Source of the DNA: an uncultured Alphaproteobacteria bacterium
Lineage (GTDB): Bacteria > Pseudomonadota > Alphaproteobacteria > CAAGCB01 > CAG-977
Reading direction: 5' to 3'
Assembly: GCA_944390195.1 (NCBI GenBank)
Contig: CALXOZ010000006.1
Location: forward strand, 1-64,000
DNA length: 64,000 nt
The position numbers and the translations under genes are program-made. This document shows, piece after piece, positions 21,253 to 28,489 of this stretch; the first letter of the stretch is position 1; every line of letters starts with the position of its first letter. The notes under the pieces were generated by a model. The model worked only from the letters and a program-made list of their open reading frames with translations. It did no database searches and had not been told where the DNA came from.

Positions 21253-22044
21253 CTAATCGGCTTTGGCGCACAAGTTGTTTCGTAAATATTCCCAAGCTTC
21301 TTTATTAGGGGCGGAAATCAGATGATTTGCCCCGATCAAAGGCGTATAAGAGGCTCCGTCAACATAAGAGGTATATCCGCCCGCCTCTTGATGAAGCATG
21401 ACACCGGCGGCATGATCCCACGGTTTGATAATTTTCGTACGATAAGCTGAATAATGGGTGCCGCCGGAAATAATCAACATATATCCGAAACACGCACTGC
21501 CCCACCAAACGGGTTTGGGCAGGCGTTCATCTTTAAAAGCGACGCGGCGTCCGACCACTCCTGTCATTTTATGAAGATCCGTTACTTCGGCAACTTTCAA
21601 ACGCCGGTTTTCATACCATGCGCCACCGCCCTTTTCCCCCATGATCATACGTTTATAAACAGGGTGATACAGCCATCCGGCAATCGTTTCCCCTTTATAG
21701 ACCAATGCCACAACGACACCGATTTCACTACGCCCATAGGCAAAATTCATGGTTCCGTCTATGGGATCAATGACCCAGACGGGACGATCCTGTTTTAAAT
21801 ACATCAAAACGGAAGGATCTTTAAAAGCAGCCTCCTCCCCCACGACGAAAGAATCCGGTAACAATGCCGTCAACTCCTCGGTCAAACGTTTTTCCGTTTG
21901 CGTATCGGCAACAGTTACAAAATCTTCGGATGAATTTTTTGTATCAATATCAGAAACGGACAAATGATTGAAACGAGGCAAAACTTCTTGATCGGAAATC
22001 GTTTTTATAATATCCGCCACTTTATTAAGATCAAGATTGAGCAT
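21253..22044 (-). CDS. suhB: Inositol monophosphatase family protein
   Basis: A 263-residue lithium-sensitive phosphatase. The metal-binding motifs are complete: GEEAA near residue 68, WVIDPIDGTMNFAYG near residues 90-104, and PWDHAAGVMLHQEAGG near 208-223. Members dephosphorylate myo-inositol-1-phosphate, and some act on histidinol phosphate or PAPS; in enterobacteria SuhB also joins the rRNA antitermination complex. The exact substrate cannot be told from sequence. It is the last gene of the dusB-to-suhB operon and overlaps the end of hflX by 14 bases. Confidence 0.85.
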   Translation of the reverse strand: MLNLDLNKVADIIKTISDQEVLPRFNHLSVSDIDTKNSSEDFVTVADTQTEKRLTEELTALLPDSFVVGEEAAFKDPSVLMYLKQDRPVWVIDPIDGTMNFAYGRSEIGVVVALVYKGETIAGWLYHPVYKRMIMGEKGGGAWYENRRLKVAEVTDLHKMTGVVGRRVAFKDERLPKPVWWGSACFGYMLIISGGTHYSAYRTKIIKPWDHAAGVMLHQEAGGYTSYVDGASYTPLIGANHLISAPNKEAWEYLRNNLCAKAD

Positions 22045-23320
22045 AAATCACCTTTGGGTAAATACTTTTAAATTTTTGAAAATCGGCTTGATCTAAGCGC
22101 ACATGAACATGACAACCGTCAAGATCGTCCTTTCTGTCCAAGACTTCAGCCACCCTATATAAATAAGCCAAAGCATCCCCTTGTTCAACCGGAACGTCAA
22201 CAACGATTTCCATACGACCGGCAGCCAACGATTTTTCAATGAGATTTAACAACTCTTGGACACCGTTTCCGTCAACGGCGCAAACAAGCGTTTGTTTCCC
22301 CGAACGTCGACTTGCCGTCATCAAAGCATTACGCCTTGATTCATCAAGCAAATCCGATTTATTAAGCACTTCGATCAACCCATGATCGACTTGACTGTCA
22401 AGTCCCAACGCCTTCAATACATTTTCAACATCCCGCTTTTGCATTTCTGTATCAGGATGGGCGATATCACGGACATGCAAAATCAAAGAGGCTTCAGCGA
22501 CTTCTTCCAAAGTCGCACGGAACGACGCAATCAGCTCCGTCGGTAAATCGGAAATAAAGCCCACTGTATCGGAAAGAATGACTTTTCTTCCCGAAGGCAA
22601 CTTCAACAAACGCATTGTCGGATCCAAAGTCGCGAACAACATATCTTTGACAAAGACATCCGCCTGTGTCAAGCGGTTGAATAAAGTCGACTTTCCCGCA
22701 TTCGTGTAACCGACCAAAGCGACGACGGGATACAGGACTTTTTTTCGCGCCTGACGATGCAAAGCCCGTGTTCGTTTAACGGCTTCTAATTCCTTTTTCA
22801 ACTTTGCAATCGTTTCGGTTATCACCCGCCTGTCCAGCTCGATTTGCGTTTCCCCCGGACCGCCCAGAAAACCCTTGCCACCACGCTGACGTTCCAAATG
22901 CGTCCAACCGCGCACCAATCGGGATCTTTGATAATTCAAATGAGCCAGTTCGACTTGTAAAACCCCTTCTTTCGTTCTGGCTCTTTCACCAAAAATTTCT
23001 AAAATCAATGCCGTGCGGTCAATAACTTTACAATTCCATAATTTTTCCAAATTACGTTGTTGTATTGCGGATAATGAACAATTTACAACAGCCAAAGAAA
23101 CTTCGTTTTCTTTTATTTCTTCTTTAATCCGCTCTGCCATTCCCTTCCCTATATACAAGGAAGCGTTGATTTTATTTAAAATGACAGCCTTATCTTTTAC
23201 GACGACCAGATTGATTGCCGTCGTCAAATTTTTTATTTCTTCCAGCCCCGCTTGTAAAGACCGTCCCGTATCCGTTTGTTTTTTTAAAACCGGATGTAAA
23301 ACGAAAGTCTTTTCAGACAC
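22031..23320 (-). CDS. hflX: GTPase HflX
   Basis: A 429-residue ribosome-associated GTPase that splits stalled ribosomes under stress. The N-terminal glycine-rich subdomain is followed by GKGFLGGPGETQIELDRR, a coiled coil, the G domain with GYTNAGKST (near residue 205), DTVGFISDLP and NKSDL, and a short C-terminal domain. The hfq-hflX order is widely conserved and also seen in E. coli. It starts 11 bases behind the hfq stop and overlaps the phosphatase gene downstream. Confidence 0.95.
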   Translation of the reverse strand: MSEKTFVLHPVLKKQTDTGRSLQAGLEEIKNLTTAINLVVVKDKAVILNKINASLYIGKGMAERIKEEIKENEVSLAVVNCSLSAIQQRNLEKLWNCKVIDRTALILEIFGERARTKEGVLQVELAHLNYQRSRLVRGWTHLERQRGGKGFLGGPGETQIELDRRVITETIAKLKKELEAVKRTRALHRQARKKVLYPVVALVGYTNAGKSTLFNRLTQADVFVKDMLFATLDPTMRLLKLPSGRKVILSDTVGFISDLPTELIASFRATLEEVAEASLILHVRDIAHPDTEMQKRDVENVLKALGLDSQVDHGLIEVLNKSDLLDESRRNALMTASRRSGKQTLVCAVDGNGVQELLNLIEKSLAAGRMEIVVDVPVEQGDALAYLYRVAEVLDRKDDLDGCHVHVRLDQADFQKFKSIYPKVIYAQS

Positions 23321-23331
23321 CCTTCCGTTCC

Positions 23332-23589
23332 CTATTCGACAGATGAACCGGTCGCGTTTTCTTCATCGTCAAACAAAGAAACGGGCACAGCCGGCATGAT
23401 TGTCGATACTGCGTGCTTGTAAATCAACTGCGTATGCCCATCACGGCGCAACAGCATTGAAAAATTATCAAACCATGTAATTATCCCTTGCAATTTCACA
23501 CCGCAAATCAGGTAGACGGTTACAGGCGTTTTCGTTTTACGGATATGGTTTAAGAACACGTCCTGTACATTTTGATTTTTATCAACCAT
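23332..23589 (-). CDS. hfq: RNA chaperone Hfq
   Basis: An 85-residue Sm-like protein. The Sm1 motif includes [20 protein letters not shown] with the proximal-face residues, and Sm2 is [11 protein letters not shown] with the YKHA signature. It forms a hexamer that pairs small RNAs with mRNAs. The short acidic tail (DDEEN) is usual. Its place between a HAD phosphatase gene and hflX, in the operon that starts with dusB, matches the alphaproteobacterial order trkA-hfq-hflX apart from the inserted phosphatase. Confidence 0.97.
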
Positions 23590-23634: not shown

Positions 23635-24300
23635 TTAACCCAAAGAGTAAAGGACAGAGAGTAATTCCTGACAATTTTTTACCGTCAGAACATCTTTTCC
23701 GTCTTTATTTTCATTTGCCATGCGGACAGGGAAACACCCTGACGCTTTAGCACAAAGCATATCGGCGTCACCGTCTCCGACAAACCAGACCGGTTCGGAT
23801 AAAGCCCCTTGCTCATAAACAATTCCGGTTCCTTCCAAGGCCTTGAAAACAGGATCCGGTGCCGGTTTGTCTTTATCGGCGTCACCGGCTCCGACCACAG
23901 CATAAAAAAATCCGCCCCACCCCAAATGATCGATTTCCTCTTGCAAAATAAAGTTTGTCTTATTGCTGACCACGCCGAGTTTGCCTATTTTTTCATACGC
24001 GTACGTTATAAGTTCGTAAGCCTTATCAAACGGGGTCAACAACGATAAATGATTTTCCTGATAAGCTTGCAGATACACTTGTTTCGCCTCTTCCCAACGC
24101 TGTCCGAACAAATCCGGAAAAGTCTCCCGTAACGACAGTCCCGTCCTTGCCTGATATTCCTCCATGGAATACTCGGGCAAATTATAATATTTACGCATGG
24201 CACAAAAGGCTTTGAACAATACGGGGGTCGTATCCATTAACGTATTATCCCAATCAAATAAAATCATTTTGGGACAAGGGTAAAGATGATTATTCTTCAT
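23635..24300 (-). CDS. HAD-family phosphatase (phosphoglycolate phosphatase-like)
   Basis: A 221-residue haloacid dehalogenase-type enzyme. Motif I DWDNTLMDT supplies the nucleophile and acid Asp, a helical cap follows, motif II is VVSNKT, and motif IV is VGDGDADMLCA. The DxDxT form with a helical cap is the Gph/PGP type, which clears phosphoglycolate or similar small phosphates. The start overlaps the trkA stop by one base (TAATG), so it is coupled to trkA. A phosphatase between trkA and hfq is not the usual arrangement. Confidence 0.8.
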   Translation of the reverse strand: MKNNHLYPCPKMILFDWDNTLMDTTPVLFKAFCAMRKYYNLPEYSMEEYQARTGLSLRETFPDLFGQRWEEAKQVYLQAYQENHLSLLTPFDKAYELITYAYEKIGKLGVVSNKTNFILQEEIDHLGWGGFFYAVVGAGDADKDKPAPDPVFKALEGTGIVYEQGALSEPVWFVGDGDADMLCAKASGCFPVRMANENKDGKDVLTVKNCQELLSVLYSLG

Positions 24301-25673
24301 TAAAAAAACTCCAATCCTACAGAAAACATCTTTTCAACTTGCTTAACAGCGTCCGCATCGGAAAACAAAACCAGCCGGTCGCCTTTTTCTATGATGGTAT
24401 CCCCTCGCAACGGCAAGACATCGACATCACGGACAATCGCTCCGATAATAACGCCGGCAGGCAGACGAACGTCCCTTAACGCTTTGCCGGCATATTCAAA
24501 CGTATCAAAAACATCGGCTTCCAAGACCTCACACAGACCGGAACGGATCGAATATGCCGCATAAATTTTCCCCCGCCGGACATGTTGCAAGATTGTCGAA
24601 ACCATAATGTCACCCGGATTAATGATGACATCAATCCCCAAATTGACAACCAACTGGGAATAAAGCTGTTTTTCAATCACTGAAATGGTTTGTTCCACAC
24701 CGTACTTTTTTGCCATCAATGTCGCCAAAATGTTGTCTTCATCAGCGGAACTCACCGCAATGACGGTTTCGACAATATCAATATCCGCCTCTTCCAACAA
24801 AGCCGTGTTCAGAAAATCGCCATGAATAACTGTCGTTTGAGACAACGTTTCCGCTAAAAATTTGGCTCGTTTCTCATTTTCCTCCACAAGCGTTACACGC
24901 ATATGAGACGCTTTTTCCAAATATCTTGCCAAATTCAATCCGATATTGTTTCCCCCCAGAATCAGGACGCTTTGTGAGCGTTCCTGATCACGTCCGAACA
25001 ACGTCAAGATCCTTCTGACCGATTCGGAAGGAACAATCACATAAACATCATCTCCGGCTAAAATACGGGTATCGCTGTCCGTTATAATCAGTTTCGAATT
25101 GCGAACCAAAGCTGCAACAACCGCGTTTACATCCGGAAACAGGTTCGTCAACTGACGCAAAGGTGTATTGATCATAGGACACACCTCGTCACAATGGATC
25201 CCCAACAAATACACCTTATCCATAGCCAACGGTATGACTTCAAACGCACCGGGGAAAGAGATATTGCGTCCGATTGAACGGGCTATTTCCACTTCCGGAG
25301 AAATCACGACATCTATAGGCAACGCATCATGGGTATAAAATTTGCGCCATCTTTGACGGGTATATTCATTAGAACGCAAACGAGCGATCTTTGTCGGCAC
25401 TTTAAACAGAGAATTGGCGGCTTGGCATGTAACCATGTTGACTTCGTCGGAAGCCGTAACTGCAATCAACATATCGGCATCTTGCGCATCCGCCTGTTCC
25501 AAAACAGAAGGATAAGAAGCAAAACCGACAATCGGGCGGATTTCCAATGTCGAAGAAAGTTCGTTCAACCGATCCGCATTGATATCAATGACAACAACAT
25601 CATTGCCGTCTTCCACCAAATAACGTGCAATTGTCGATCCGACCCGCCCCGCTCCGCAAATAATTATTCTCAT
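24300..25673 (-). CDS. trkA: Trk system potassium uptake protein TrkA
   Basis: A 457-residue cytoplasmic gating subunit of Trk potassium channels. It has two RCK units, each an NAD-binding fold (GAGRVGSTIARYL at about residue 6 and GGNNIGLNLARYL near 223) followed by a TrkA_C domain. Its membrane partner TrkH/TrkG is not in the window. It overlaps the Fis-like gene by four bases (ATGA) and the HAD gene by one. In other alphaproteobacteria trkA follows ntrX, which is missing here. Confidence 0.95.
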   Translation of the reverse strand: MRIIICGAGRVGSTIARYLVEDGNDVVVIDINADRLNELSSTLEIRPIVGFASYPSVLEQADAQDADMLIAVTASDEVNMVTCQAANSLFKVPTKIARLRSNEYTRQRWRKFYTHDALPIDVVISPEVEIARSIGRNISFPGAFEVIPLAMDKVYLLGIHCDEVCPMINTPLRQLTNLFPDVNAVVAALVRNSKLIITDSDTRILAGDDVYVIVPSESVRRILTLFGRDQERSQSVLILGGNNIGLNLARYLEKASHMRVTLVEENEKRAKFLAETLSQTTVIHGDFLNTALLEEADIDIVETVIAVSSADEDNILATLMAKKYGVEQTISVIEKQLYSQLVVNLGIDVIINPGDIMVSTILQHVRRGKIYAAYSIRSGLCEVLEADVFDTFEYAGKALRDVRLPAGVIIGAIVRDVDVLPLRGDTIIEKGDRLVLFSDADAVKQVEKMFSVGLEFF

Positions 25674-25972
25674 TTTCTTTTCCGCCTTTTATACAGATGC
25701 GACATCGTCGCGTTTTTTTGGTTGACCTTGTCGTCCAAGTCGAATTGGCGCATTTTCTTGAGCAACGTATTTCTGTTCAACCCTAAAATCTTAGCCGTTT
25801 TCAAACGATTTCCCTTTGCTGTTTCCAACGTTACCGATATCAACCTGCGTTCCACTTCCTGCATGATGGAATCATACACATTTTTTTGATCCGTAACATC
25901 AACCATACCGGCATAAAAACGGCGTAAATATTTTTCAATGACATCGCCCAAGCCTTCATTTTGATCTGTCAT
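25670..25972 (-). CDS. Fis-like DNA-binding protein derived from the C-terminus of NtrC
   Basis: About 100 residues from the ATG at 25972, which overlaps the dusB stop by four bases; a longer frame to 26083 lies inside dusB and is rejected. Residues 33-80 match the Fis-type helix-turn-helix at the end of NtrC: VYDSIMQEVERRLIS, then TAKGNRLKTAKILGLNRNTL with the turn at about 56-77. There is no receiver domain and no AAA+ sigma-54 domain. The basic tail ends in RRKRK. It sits where alphaproteobacteria carry ntrB-ntrC-ntrY-ntrX between dusB and trkA. The result resembles the dusB-fis operon of gammaproteobacteria, whose Fis is thought to come from NtrC. It is probably a small nucleoid or regulatory protein. 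Confidence 0.85.
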   Translation of the reverse strand: MTDQNEGLGDVIEKYLRRFYAGMVDVTDQKNVYDSIMQEVERRLISVTLETAKGNRLKTAKILGLNRNTLLKKMRQFDLDDKVNQKNATMSHLYKRRKRK

Positions 25973-26937
25973 GTTTGCCTGCCGAAAAAATCCCGAATTA
26001 AAGACAACAGTTCCGCCGTCTGCGTTATTTGATTGACCCGATCTCGAAAAGCACTTGCGCCTGTCATCCCCGAAGAGTACCAACCGATATGTTTTCTGGC
26101 GATAAAAACGGCTTTATGCCCGTAATATTTCTCCATTTTATGAAAATGATCAAGCACAACCTGACTAATATCATCCATTTTATTGAAGACACCGTTTTTC
26201 AATCCGGTGCGACATTCCGCCAAAGCCCAAGGCTTTCCCAACAATCCGCGTCCGATCATAACCGCATCGACTCCTGTTTCGGACAACACTTTTTTTGCTT
26301 GCGCGGAAGTTCTGATATCACCATTGGCAATAACGGGAATCGTCAGAACTTTTTTCAATTTTTCAAAAGCGTTCCAATCCGCATGACCGGCATAAAACTG
26401 TTGTCTTGTTCTTGCATGCAATGTTACGAAAGAAACTCCCGCCTGTTGCATCCGTTTTCCGAAATCAAGATAATTCAGTGAATCCCCGTCCCATCCCAAT
26501 CGGAATTTGACACCAACAGGCAAATGCACCGCTTCAACAACGCGCTGGACGATTTTCTCTGCTTTTTCAGGATCTTTCATCAAAGCGGCACCGCCACCCG
26601 ATTTCACAATTTTTGAAACAGGACACCCCATGTTGATATCAATCAGGTCAACTTGTCCGCTTTCTTCAATAATCTTCGCCGCCTGCGCCATAACATCAGG
26701 ATCCGTCCCTTCAATCTGCACGCCGACCGGTCTGTCCGTTTGGGCACACAACGCCATCTTTTGCGTTTTTTTATGCGCATGAACCAACGAAGCTGCCAGA
26801 ATCATTTCAGTGAATAACAATTCCGTTCCGAATTGGCGGATCATTTCCCTCATCGGTTCATCCGTAACACCTGCCATCGGAGCACCGACAACAGGTGCAA
26901 TCCGCAAAGACGCTATTTTTAAATCATCCGGAATCAT
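25969..26937 (-). CDS. dusB: tRNA-dihydrouridine synthase DusB
   Basis: A 322-residue flavoenzyme that reduces uridine in the tRNA D-loop. The TIM barrel shows APMAGVTDEPMREMIRQFG at the start, NMGCPVSKIVKSGGGAALM with the catalytic Cys, and GRGLLGKPWAL at the phosphate site. It is the nifR3 gene of the alphaproteobacterial ntr cluster. The start lies behind AGGGGAAG. Its first 53 codons and promoter are duplicated at 27083-27242 and beyond, but this copy is complete. It heads the seven-gene operon running down to 21253. Confidence 0.95.
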   Translation of the reverse strand: MIPDDLKIASLRIAPVVGAPMAGVTDEPMREMIRQFGTELLFTEMILAASLVHAHKKTQKMALCAQTDRPVGVQIEGTDPDVMAQAAKIIEESGQVDLIDINMGCPVSKIVKSGGGAALMKDPEKAEKIVQRVVEAVHLPVGVKFRLGWDGDSLNYLDFGKRMQQAGVSFVTLHARTRQQFYAGHADWNAFEKLKKVLTIPVIANGDIRTSAQAKKVLSETGVDAVMIGRGLLGKPWALAECRTGLKNGVFNKMDDISQVVLDHFHKMEKYYGHKAVFIARKHIGWYSSGMTGASAFRDRVNQITQTAELLSLIRDFFGRQT

Positions 26938-27023
26938 CTTCCCCTTTTCTAAAATGAAAATCTGTTTTAATCTTTCAATATGTTCAATCTATTTGGTATG
27001 AAATTTAACAAGGAGAAGGGTCT

Positions 27024-27122
27024 ATGGTCAAGTGTGCCGTTTTAGTCGTTGCCGCCGGCAGAGGTCATCGTTTCGGCGGAGACATGAACCAACGAAGCTG
27101 CCAGAATCATTTCAGTGAATAA
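27024..27122 (+). pseudogene. Duplicated 5' fragment of ispDF
   Basis: Starts with the same ribosome site and first 19 codons as ispDF (MVKCAVLVVAAGRGHRFGG), then crosses the duplication junction into antisense dusB sequence and stops after 32 codons in all. It would be translated as a useless short peptide if transcribed from the first copy of the promoter. Confidence 0.85.
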
Positions 27123-27242
27123 CAATTCCGTTCCGAATTGGCGGATCATTTCCCTCATCGGTTCATCCGTAACACCTGCCATCGGAGCACCGACAACAGG
27201 TGCAATCCGCAAAGACGCTATTTTTAAATCATCCGGAATCAT
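27042..27242 (-). pseudogene. Duplicated 5' fragment of dusB
   Basis: The first 53 codons of dusB with its ribosome site and promoter region, followed across the junction by 13 codons of antisense ispD sequence and a stop. It keeps the flavin-binding AP-AGVTD start but none of the catalytic region, so it cannot be active. Confidence 0.88.
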
Positions 27243-27328
27243 CTTCCCCTTTTCTAAAATGAAAATCTGTTTTAATCTTTCAATATGTTCAATCTATTTG
27301 GTATGAAATTTAACAAGGAGAAGGGTCT
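27243..27328. promoter_or_regulatory. Divergent promoter region of dusB and ispDF, second copy
   Basis: These 86 bases, identical to 26938-27023, are all that separates the divergent starts, so they must hold both promoters. A ribosome site AAGGAGAAGG lies just before the ispDF start and an AGGGGAAG-type site before dusB. I cannot fix -35 and -10 boxes with confidence. Confidence 0.6.
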
Positions 27329-28489
27329 ATGGTCAAGTGTGCCGTTTTAGTCGTTGCCGCCGGCAGAGGTCATCGTTTCGGCGGAGAAATGCCAAAACAA
27401 TACAGAACGGTCGGTTCCCGAATGATATTAAGACATTCTTTAGCCACATTTTGCGCCCATCCCTGTGTTCATGCCGTGCGCACGGTCATTCATCCCGACG
27501 ATCTTCCCTTATACCAATGTGCGGCGGAAAACCTGCCCGTCCTTGCGCCCGTTTTCGGCGGTCAGTCCCGACAAGATTCCGTCCGTCTGGGATTGGAAAG
27601 CTTGAAAGAGGAAAACCCCGATATCGTGTTAATTCATGACGGCGCGCGCCCTTTTGTGGACTTCGGTATCATCAACCGGATTATCATGGGTGTAAATGAC
27701 CAACAAGGAGCCATTCCCGCTTTAAGCGTAACAGACACAATCAAAGCGGGGACGGATAAGAACAATCAAATTGTTATTTCTCATACGGTGGACAGAACGG
27801 GTTTGTATCGCGTTCAAACACCGCAGGGTTTTCCTTATCGGGCAATTTTAAAAGCCCATGAAGACGTTAAAGGTATGGATATGACTGACGATGCGTGTGT
27901 TGCCGAACACGCGGGTATGATTGTTTCCCTTGTACAAGGGAGCGAGGACAATTTCAAAATCACGACACAGGACGATTTGGTGCGTGCGGAACTCCTGTTA
28001 AAAGGAAAAGGGGAAAAAATCCGTACCGCGACCGGTTTCGATGTTCATAAATTCACACAAGGTTCCTATGTAACATTATGCGGTGTCAAGGTTCCTCATG
28101 ATAAAGGATTGGAAGGTCATTCCGACGCCGATGTCGGTTTGCATGCTTTGACAGACGCTTTGTTAGGCGCGATCGGTTCCGCGGATATCGGTTCACACTT
28201 TCCCCCTTCGGACGACAAATGGAAAGGTGCCGATTCCGCCGTGTTTTTAAAATATGCCGTCAATCTGGTCAACGGATTGGGAGGACGTATTGTCAATGCC
28301 GATATCACTTTTATTTGCGAACGTCCTAAAATAGGAATCTACCGCATGGAGATGATTGAAAAATTAGCCGTTTTAATGAATATGTCCGCTTCCGGCATCA
28401 GCATCAAAGCGACCACAACCGAACAATTGGGCTTTACCGGACGCAAAGAGGGCATTGCCGCTCAAGCTTGCGTTTGTATAGCCCTTTAA
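27329..28489 (+). CDS. ispDF: Bifunctional IspD/IspF (MEP pathway)
   Basis: A 386-residue fusion of two non-consecutive steps of isoprenoid synthesis. Residues 1 to about 225 are IspD, the cytidylyltransferase that makes CDP-ME, with the CTP-binding loop VVAAGRGHRFGGEMPKQY and the HDGARPFV motif. Residues about 226-386 are IspF, which cyclises CDP-ME 2-phosphate, with the metal ligands in GFDVHKF and GHSDADVGLHALTDALLGA. Fusion is common in alphaproteobacteria. The MEP products feed the squalene genes at 43649-46606. Its 5' region is duplicated upstream. Confidence 0.96.
   Translation: MVKCAVLVVAAGRGHRFGGEMPKQYRTVGSRMILRHSLATFCAHPCVHAVRTVIHPDDLPLYQCAAENLPVLAPVFGGQSRQDSVRLGLESLKEENPDIVLIHDGARPFVDFGIINRIIMGVNDQQGAIPALSVTDTIKAGTDKNNQIVISHTVDRTGLYRVQTPQGFPYRAILKAHEDVKGMDMTDDACVAEHAGMIVSLVQGSEDNFKITTQDDLVRAELLLKGKGEKIRTATGFDVHKFTQGSYVTLCGVKVPHDKGLEGHSDADVGLHALTDALLGAIGSADIGSHFPPSDDKWKGADSAVFLKYAVNLVNGLGGRIVNADITFICERPKIGIYRMEMIEKLAVLMNMSASGISIKATTTEQLGFTGRKEGIAAQACVCIAL

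Follow-up and report, generated by a model that had tools for sequence, protein, structure and literature searches.

A lone Fis-like gene in the ntrB-ntrC slot behind dusB in an uncultured alphaproteobacterium and its counterparts in the class

Fis of Gammaproteobacteria, which organizes the chromosome in E. coli, was proposed by Morett and Bork in 1998 to derive from NtrC (cited in PMC7166090 and PMC11407668). Gamma- and betaproteobacterial Fis proteins, such as E. coli Fis and P. aeruginosa PA4853, are lone proteins of about 77-118 aa with a four-helix fold that are encoded behind dusB, as is the protein analyzed here. A further small Fis-like protein, NinH of phage lambda, is described as a Fis mimic and as a dimer in PMC7166090; it has most key HTH residues in common with our protein and differs from it in being a phage gene with another helix layout in an unrelated locus. 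In Alphaproteobacteria, the slot behind dusB is usually occupied by ntrB and ntrC, and the canonical order from which the original prediction set out, dusB-ntrB-ntrC-ntrY-ntrX-trkA-hfq-hflX, is indeed found in the canonical alphaproteobacterial loci that we fetched. We found no account of lone Fis genes occupying this alphaproteobacterial ntrBC slot in the searchable openly licensed literature; since the literature covered consists of openly licensed papers, their novelty is provisional.

Sequence and predicted fold of the Fis-like protein

The stretch of DNA analyzed (the window) comprises 64,000 nucleotides of an uncultured gut alphaproteobacterium (contig CALXOZ010000006.1, assembly GCA_944390195.1). 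Open reading frame coordinates and domain matches agree with the prediction that dusB is followed, through an ATGA overlap, by a 100-residue Fis-type protein and then by trkA (Table 1). The HAD-phosphatase gene between trkA and hfq is an addition to the gene order given there. An exact 305-bp tandem duplication is also present in the window (26778-27082 and 27083-27387), spanning the 5' end of dusB, the intergenic stretch up to ispDF and the first bases of that gene. No sign of this duplication is seen in the fetched relatives, whose dusB-ispDF gap is short; it is either an assembly artefact or very recent.

Table 1. Coordinates of the Fis-like gene, its parts and the flanking genes in the window.
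Feature	Coordinates	Strand	Remarks
Lone Fis-like gene	25670..25972	-	100 aa, ATG start, coordinates include the stop codon; ORF, Pfam, NCBIfam and PDB matches
HTH_8 / Fis-type DNA-binding domain	25742..25861	-	Residues 38-77; Pfam match
C-terminal tail	25673..25732	-	Residues 81-100, terminates in KRRKRK
dusB	25969..26937	-	Upstream of the fis-like gene, ATGA overlap; Pfam Dus 2.2e-93
trkA	24300..25673	-	Downstream, overlaps the fis-like gene by 4 nt; Pfam
HAD-type phosphatase (putative name)	23635..24300	-	Between trkA and hfq; family-wide
hfq	23332..23589	-	Name from sequence and synteny
hflX	22031..23320	-	Name from sequence and synteny
ispDF	27329..28489	+	Divergent; in canonical genomes, too, located next to the dusB/ntrB end

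The Pfam match to HTH_8 has an E-value of 2.7e-12. In NCBIfam, the top matches are Fis models (E 1.2e-14 and 5.8e-14), although the scores against PRK00430/PRK01905, 52.6 of 99 bits and 54.6 of 122 bits, are under the curated cut-offs. Next comes the ntrC model, matched over its residues 395-462 (E=4.9e-12), approximately the last 70 residues of NtrC. Neither the Pfam nor the NCBIfam search returned a receiver or AAA+ match. The PDB sequence match to solved Fis structures spans residues 2-79 and thus covers the dimerization helices in addition to the HTH. An AlphaFold model with a mean pLDDT of 70, based on an alignment of only seven sequences, contains helices at residues 8-21, 26-51, 56-63 and 67-76 and a low-confidence tail. 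Its closest PDB structures are Fis chains (Foldseek E 0.01) followed by NtrC-type domains, and VIA-align superposes it on Fis with a Z of 8.2 and an rmsd of 3.1 over 71 aligned residues. Such a fold match is weak by itself for a small helical protein and agrees with the sequence match to Fis.

The predicted four-helix Fis fold is accompanied by five of the six DNA-contact residues of Fis (N73, N84, R85, T87, R89 and K90). Mutation of N73, N84, R85, T87 or K90 abolishes or weakens DNA binding by Fis (Table 1 of PMC7166090); the window protein keeps all five, as N55, N66, R67, T69 and K72, and has them in common with gamma/beta Fis. R89 is replaced by leucine in 11/11 members of the window family and in L055, and varies in lone Fis proteins elsewhere too. 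It is invariant in alphaproteobacterial NtrC (37/37), other NtrC (5/5) and gamma/beta Fis (15/15 rows). An R89A mutant of Fis reportedly still binds DNA to some extent (PMC7166090), and leucine at this position therefore need not abolish DNA binding. The N-terminal arm of E. coli Fis is missing in the window family, the window protein starting at about Fis residue 20. This arm is needed for DNA-invertase activation in E. coli. Judged by the R89 replacement and the missing arm, DNA binding by the window protein may differ from that of E. coli Fis.

Further differences from gamma/beta Fis, which likewise has no receiver or AAA+ domain, are a basic tail of ~20 aa at the C-terminus, the replacement of Q74 by arginine and an operon that runs on to trkA within an alphaproteobacterial locus. 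No counterpart of the tail was found in the sampled NtrC domains or in gammaproteobacterial Fis. The C-terminal domain of alphaproteobacterial NtrC, encoded in the same slot, is homologous to the window protein over its entire length of ~75 aa. N68 of the window protein, at the position of Fis G86, is the residue found in 37/37 NtrC rows, while gamma/beta Fis mostly has glycine. In contrast to NtrC, the window protein possesses no receiver, no AAA+ domain with its GAFTGA motif and no partner kinase NtrB, either beside it or elsewhere.

The ntr system and the locus in the genome and its order

The genome of the window (2.12 Mb, 98.55% complete) encodes no orthologues of NtrC, NtrX, NtrY or NtrB. 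The best genome-wide matches in the search for NtrB are generic kinases with 27-42% identity, and NtrY_N was found in 0/12 genomes of the order. These searches bear out the predicted loss of the receiver and AAA+ domains and of ntrB, ntrY and ntrX. They also complete the proposed check for ntrB, ntrX, rpoN and fis, in which rpoN alone of the ntr-associated genes sought turned up, as a single copy. The only other HTH_8 protein is a 439-aa FlbD-like activator encoded inside a flagellar operon. It carries the one true sigma-54 AAA+ domain of the genome, making FlbD its only sigma-54 activator, and RpoN has apparently been kept in the window family for FlbD. A full-length NtrC elsewhere had been named as an observation that would speak against the prediction; with FlbD as the sole sigma-54 AAA+ protein and neither NtrY nor a convincing NtrB, the genome holds no such protein.

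Of the 12 genomes of the order, 11 have the short fis-like gene, and all 12 encode one HTH_8 protein of about 445 aa each (the copy in G006 is cut by a contig end). The order dusB-fis-trkA-HAD-hfq-hflX is identical in 10/10 fetched relatives, with divergent ispDF wherever the contig extends far enough, and this shared arrangement rules out a chimeric assembly, the other objection raised in advance. The fis-like gene is under purifying selection, with dN/dS of about 0.08-0.21 over the whole gene in pairs where it could be computed and of about 0.1 in close pairs. By this ratio, the C-terminal tail evolves faster than the core, and the HTH core is invariant in the window family.

Lone Fis-like genes and intermediate forms in Alphaproteobacteria

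To investigate the distribution of such genes, we searched 386 alphaproteobacterial genomes, most of the surveyed genomes being metagenome-assembled, with a profile of the window family. The best-scoring matches were listed, for 75 of the 386 genomes (all up to about 2.6 Mb) a second time, and the resulting counts are lower bounds. Genes in the locus neighborhoods were identified by BLAST, with the window, L122 and L133 as sources of the reference genes. The profile matches the end of a normal NtrC of ~480 aa in most surveyed genomes and a short frame in many small ones. Among the matches listed, a lone Fis-like ORF is present at 54 loci outside the window family; without L066, which is cut by a contig end, these represent at least 53 genomes in 35 families other than that of the window. 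The apparent shortness of L066, L067 and L043 results from contig ends and was not counted as truncation. Lone Fis-like genes are thus widespread in small-genome Alphaproteobacteria and not one local oddity, as the single case might have seemed.

A dusB gene on the same strand precedes fis by at most 150 bp in 41 of the 54 loci, and in 32 the distance from fis to the following ntrY is no more than 150 bp. The usual arrangement is dusB-fis-ntrY-ntrX(-trkA), in which fis occupies precisely the ntrB-ntrC slot, and most lone-Fis genes have this slot and a similar size in common. Unlike these loci, the window family is also missing ntrY-ntrX. Five lone Fis-like genes of families f23 and f92 (L096, L104, L107, L108 and L112), for which dusB, ntrY and trkA were not found in the fetched stretch, are moved or divergent copies. 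L118:5198-5884 (G282) encodes a 228-aa protein with the Fis domain at its end and an N-terminus resembling a GNAT acetyltransferase, and precedes ntrY. In L113:5559-6698 (G105), the order is dusB-fis-trkA interrupted after fis by the gene for a 379-aa protein resembling a PAS-type kinase, possibly a sensor kinase kept or replaced beside the lone Fis. Loss of rpoN was considered as the sole cause of the lone-Fis state and rejected, rpoN being kept in the window family and in 27/44 other lone-Fis genomes. Its absence is nevertheless commoner in these lone-Fis genomes (17/44) than in NtrC genomes (3/27; Fisher p 0.015, relatedness ignored).

Partly reduced forms occur at four loci. L068, L116, L117 and L119 encode, behind dusB and with no adjoining NtrB, a protein of 354-363 aa with an intact Fis domain from which the receiver and GAFTGA are gone. 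Slot and C-terminal domain are those of the window protein, from which these proteins differ in retaining an AAA+-derived domain of about 270 aa. In the DusB tree, L068, L116 and L119 cluster with the lone-Fis loci L080, L094, L099 and L103 (support 99); L068 and L116 cluster likewise in the concatenated tree described below (support 100; L119 is not among its rows), in which L117 is sister to L169, a full NtrC locus of its own family. Two additional variants were observed. At L172:5915-7381 (G025), the PAS/HisKA region of NtrB is fused in frame to the C-terminus of NtrC between dusB and ntrY, which looks like a single internal deletion or, the evidence being one draft assembly, a mis-assembly. 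L121 (G035) and L125 (G151) encode full-length NtrC next to NtrB, yet without GAFTGA, and rpoN is not detectable in G151. No ntrB/ntrC remnants were seen between dusB, fis and ntrY in the intervals checked. The suggestion that the window might be a snapshot of Fis formation does not hold for this genome, where the process is complete, and applies better to the four partly reduced loci and L172.

Origin and role of the Fis-like gene

The reading we favor, with a probability of roughly two in three, is that the fis-like gene is the remainder of ntrB-ntrC after reduction in place and encodes a Fis-like regulator or nucleoid protein. Slot and synteny are the same as those of ntrBC in relatives and, together with the sequence, fit truncation of the resident NtrC. 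The ancestral locus would have consisted of ispDF divergent from dusB-ntrB-ntrC(-ntrY-ntrX)-trkA-hfq-hflX. Loss in place would then have removed the kinase NtrB as well as the receiver and AAA+ domains of NtrC, leaving the C-terminal dimerization and HTH domain of NtrC to be translated from an ATG overlapping the dusB stop codon, and ntrY-ntrX would have been lost as well in the window family. The product would probably be a homodimer with the Fis fold that binds degenerate sites and probably bends DNA, acting as an unphosphorylated, constitutive and sigma-54-free regulator or nucleoid protein whose level would follow from how strongly the dusB operon is expressed. Several such reductions would have taken place in Alphaproteobacteria, and one, either separate or in a common ancestor, would have led to gamma/beta Fis. 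For the window family, we infer the direction and mechanism of truncation as well as dimerization, DNA binding, bending and cellular role from sequence.

A gene of the same origin might instead encode a local low-abundance regulator that, for example, represses its own dusB-trkA operon or controls nitrogen genes through former NtrC sites. Dimeric DNA binding by the DNA-binding domains of NtrC is in keeping with such a role, and nothing decisive stands against it. Sequence alone cannot separate local regulation from the nucleoid role suggested above, and we regard the local alternative as a serious possibility that is still somewhat more doubtful than not.

A different origin, horizontal transfer of a gamma/beta-type dusB-fis unit replacing the local dusB-ntrB-ntrC, would account for gamma/beta Fis being the top-scoring NCBIfam and PDB match. 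A grouping of the window family with gammaproteobacterial Fis is rejected by no data set tried (AU p 0.34-0.64), and neither DusB (p 0.635) nor the Fis domain (p 0.34-0.49) rejects its grouping with the gamma/beta rows. However, an all-alpha DusB clade fits equally (p 0.72), and the gamma/beta DusB sequences form one clade (support 99) that leaves out the window family, so that a donor would lie outside the sampled ones. The flanking genes and gene order are alphaproteobacterial, N68 agrees with NtrC instead of gamma/beta Fis, and the nearest lone-Fis relative of the window family, L055 (G044), is likewise alphaproteobacterial and has dusB-fis-trkA, an LLKK motif and a basic end in common with it. 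We therefore consider transfer unlikely. Five loci of Pseudomonadota outside Alphaproteobacteria (L148-L152) have dusB-ntrB-ntrC, which makes the long form the probable ancestral state. These loci adjoin gamma/beta Fis in both the Fis-domain and the combined tree and, given this placement, gammaproteobacterial Fis may not need to have come by transfer from alphaproteobacteria.

Slightly less probable still is a single lone fis that arose early, in an ancestor within Alphaproteobacteria, and was spread or kept in many lineages while others re-acquired ntrBC. The common slot and size of most lone-Fis genes would suit this scenario, and TrkA+IspDF alone do not reject one clade of the window family and the other alphaproteobacterial lone-Fis rows (p 0.24). 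In contrast, a single clade of all alphaproteobacterial lone-Fis rows is rejected by the five-gene concatenation (dlnL 804), by NtrY+NtrX when a mixture model is used (dlnL 509, p 2e-6) and also by the Fis domain (dlnL 40, p 0.0025). DusB rejects the window family and the other rows as one (dlnL 109, p 2.5e-4), a test that held all lone-Fis rows together and hence draws part of its force from rows outside the window family. Several exact re-insertions of ntrBC between dusB and ntrY would also be needed. The concatenated tree (DusB+NtrY+NtrX+TrkA+IspDF) contained 110 rows, and AU tests on the concatenation used 43. As resolved, this tree needs 12 losses for the lone-Fis state; with branches below a support of 95 disregarded, at least six truncations remain, gammaproteobacteria included. 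Several truncations within Alphaproteobacteria are thus well supported, and that of the window is likely separate from all others. The tree of NtrC C-terminal domains and Fis that had been proposed as a check rejects one alphaproteobacterial origin and, at 82 columns, is otherwise mostly unresolved. Of the predicted independent re-creation of Fis, the several alphaproteobacterial origins stand, while a separation of the window family from gammaproteobacterial Fis does not follow from the AU tests. Finally, a decaying, functionless ntrC remnant, which the absence of NtrB, NtrC, NtrX and NtrY and the loss of R89 might suggest, is highly improbable in view of dN/dS of about 0.1, an invariant HTH core and a gene that is intact, and tightly overlapped by its operon neighbors, in 11/12 genomes of the order.

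Reduction in place, the reading we prefer for the window, may be an instance of a wider pattern in which dusB-ntrB-ntrC of Pseudomonadota collapses repeatedly to dusB-fis, the receiver and GAFTGA being lost first and the AAA+ domain afterwards, with gammaproteobacterial Fis as the best-known case; for this generalization we see the balance as even. The derivation of Fis from NtrC has so far been based on one event in one lineage, and many natural cases are now available for testing it. If they are independent, the lone-Fis lineages and intermediates represent a replicated natural experiment in the conversion of a phospho-regulated sigma-54 activator into a global DNA-binding protein. They would also suggest that many small-genome alphaproteobacteria carry an unstudied Fis-like protein. 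Under the wider pattern, a nitrogen-stress activator would have turned many times, in parallel lineages, into a chromosome protein resembling Fis.
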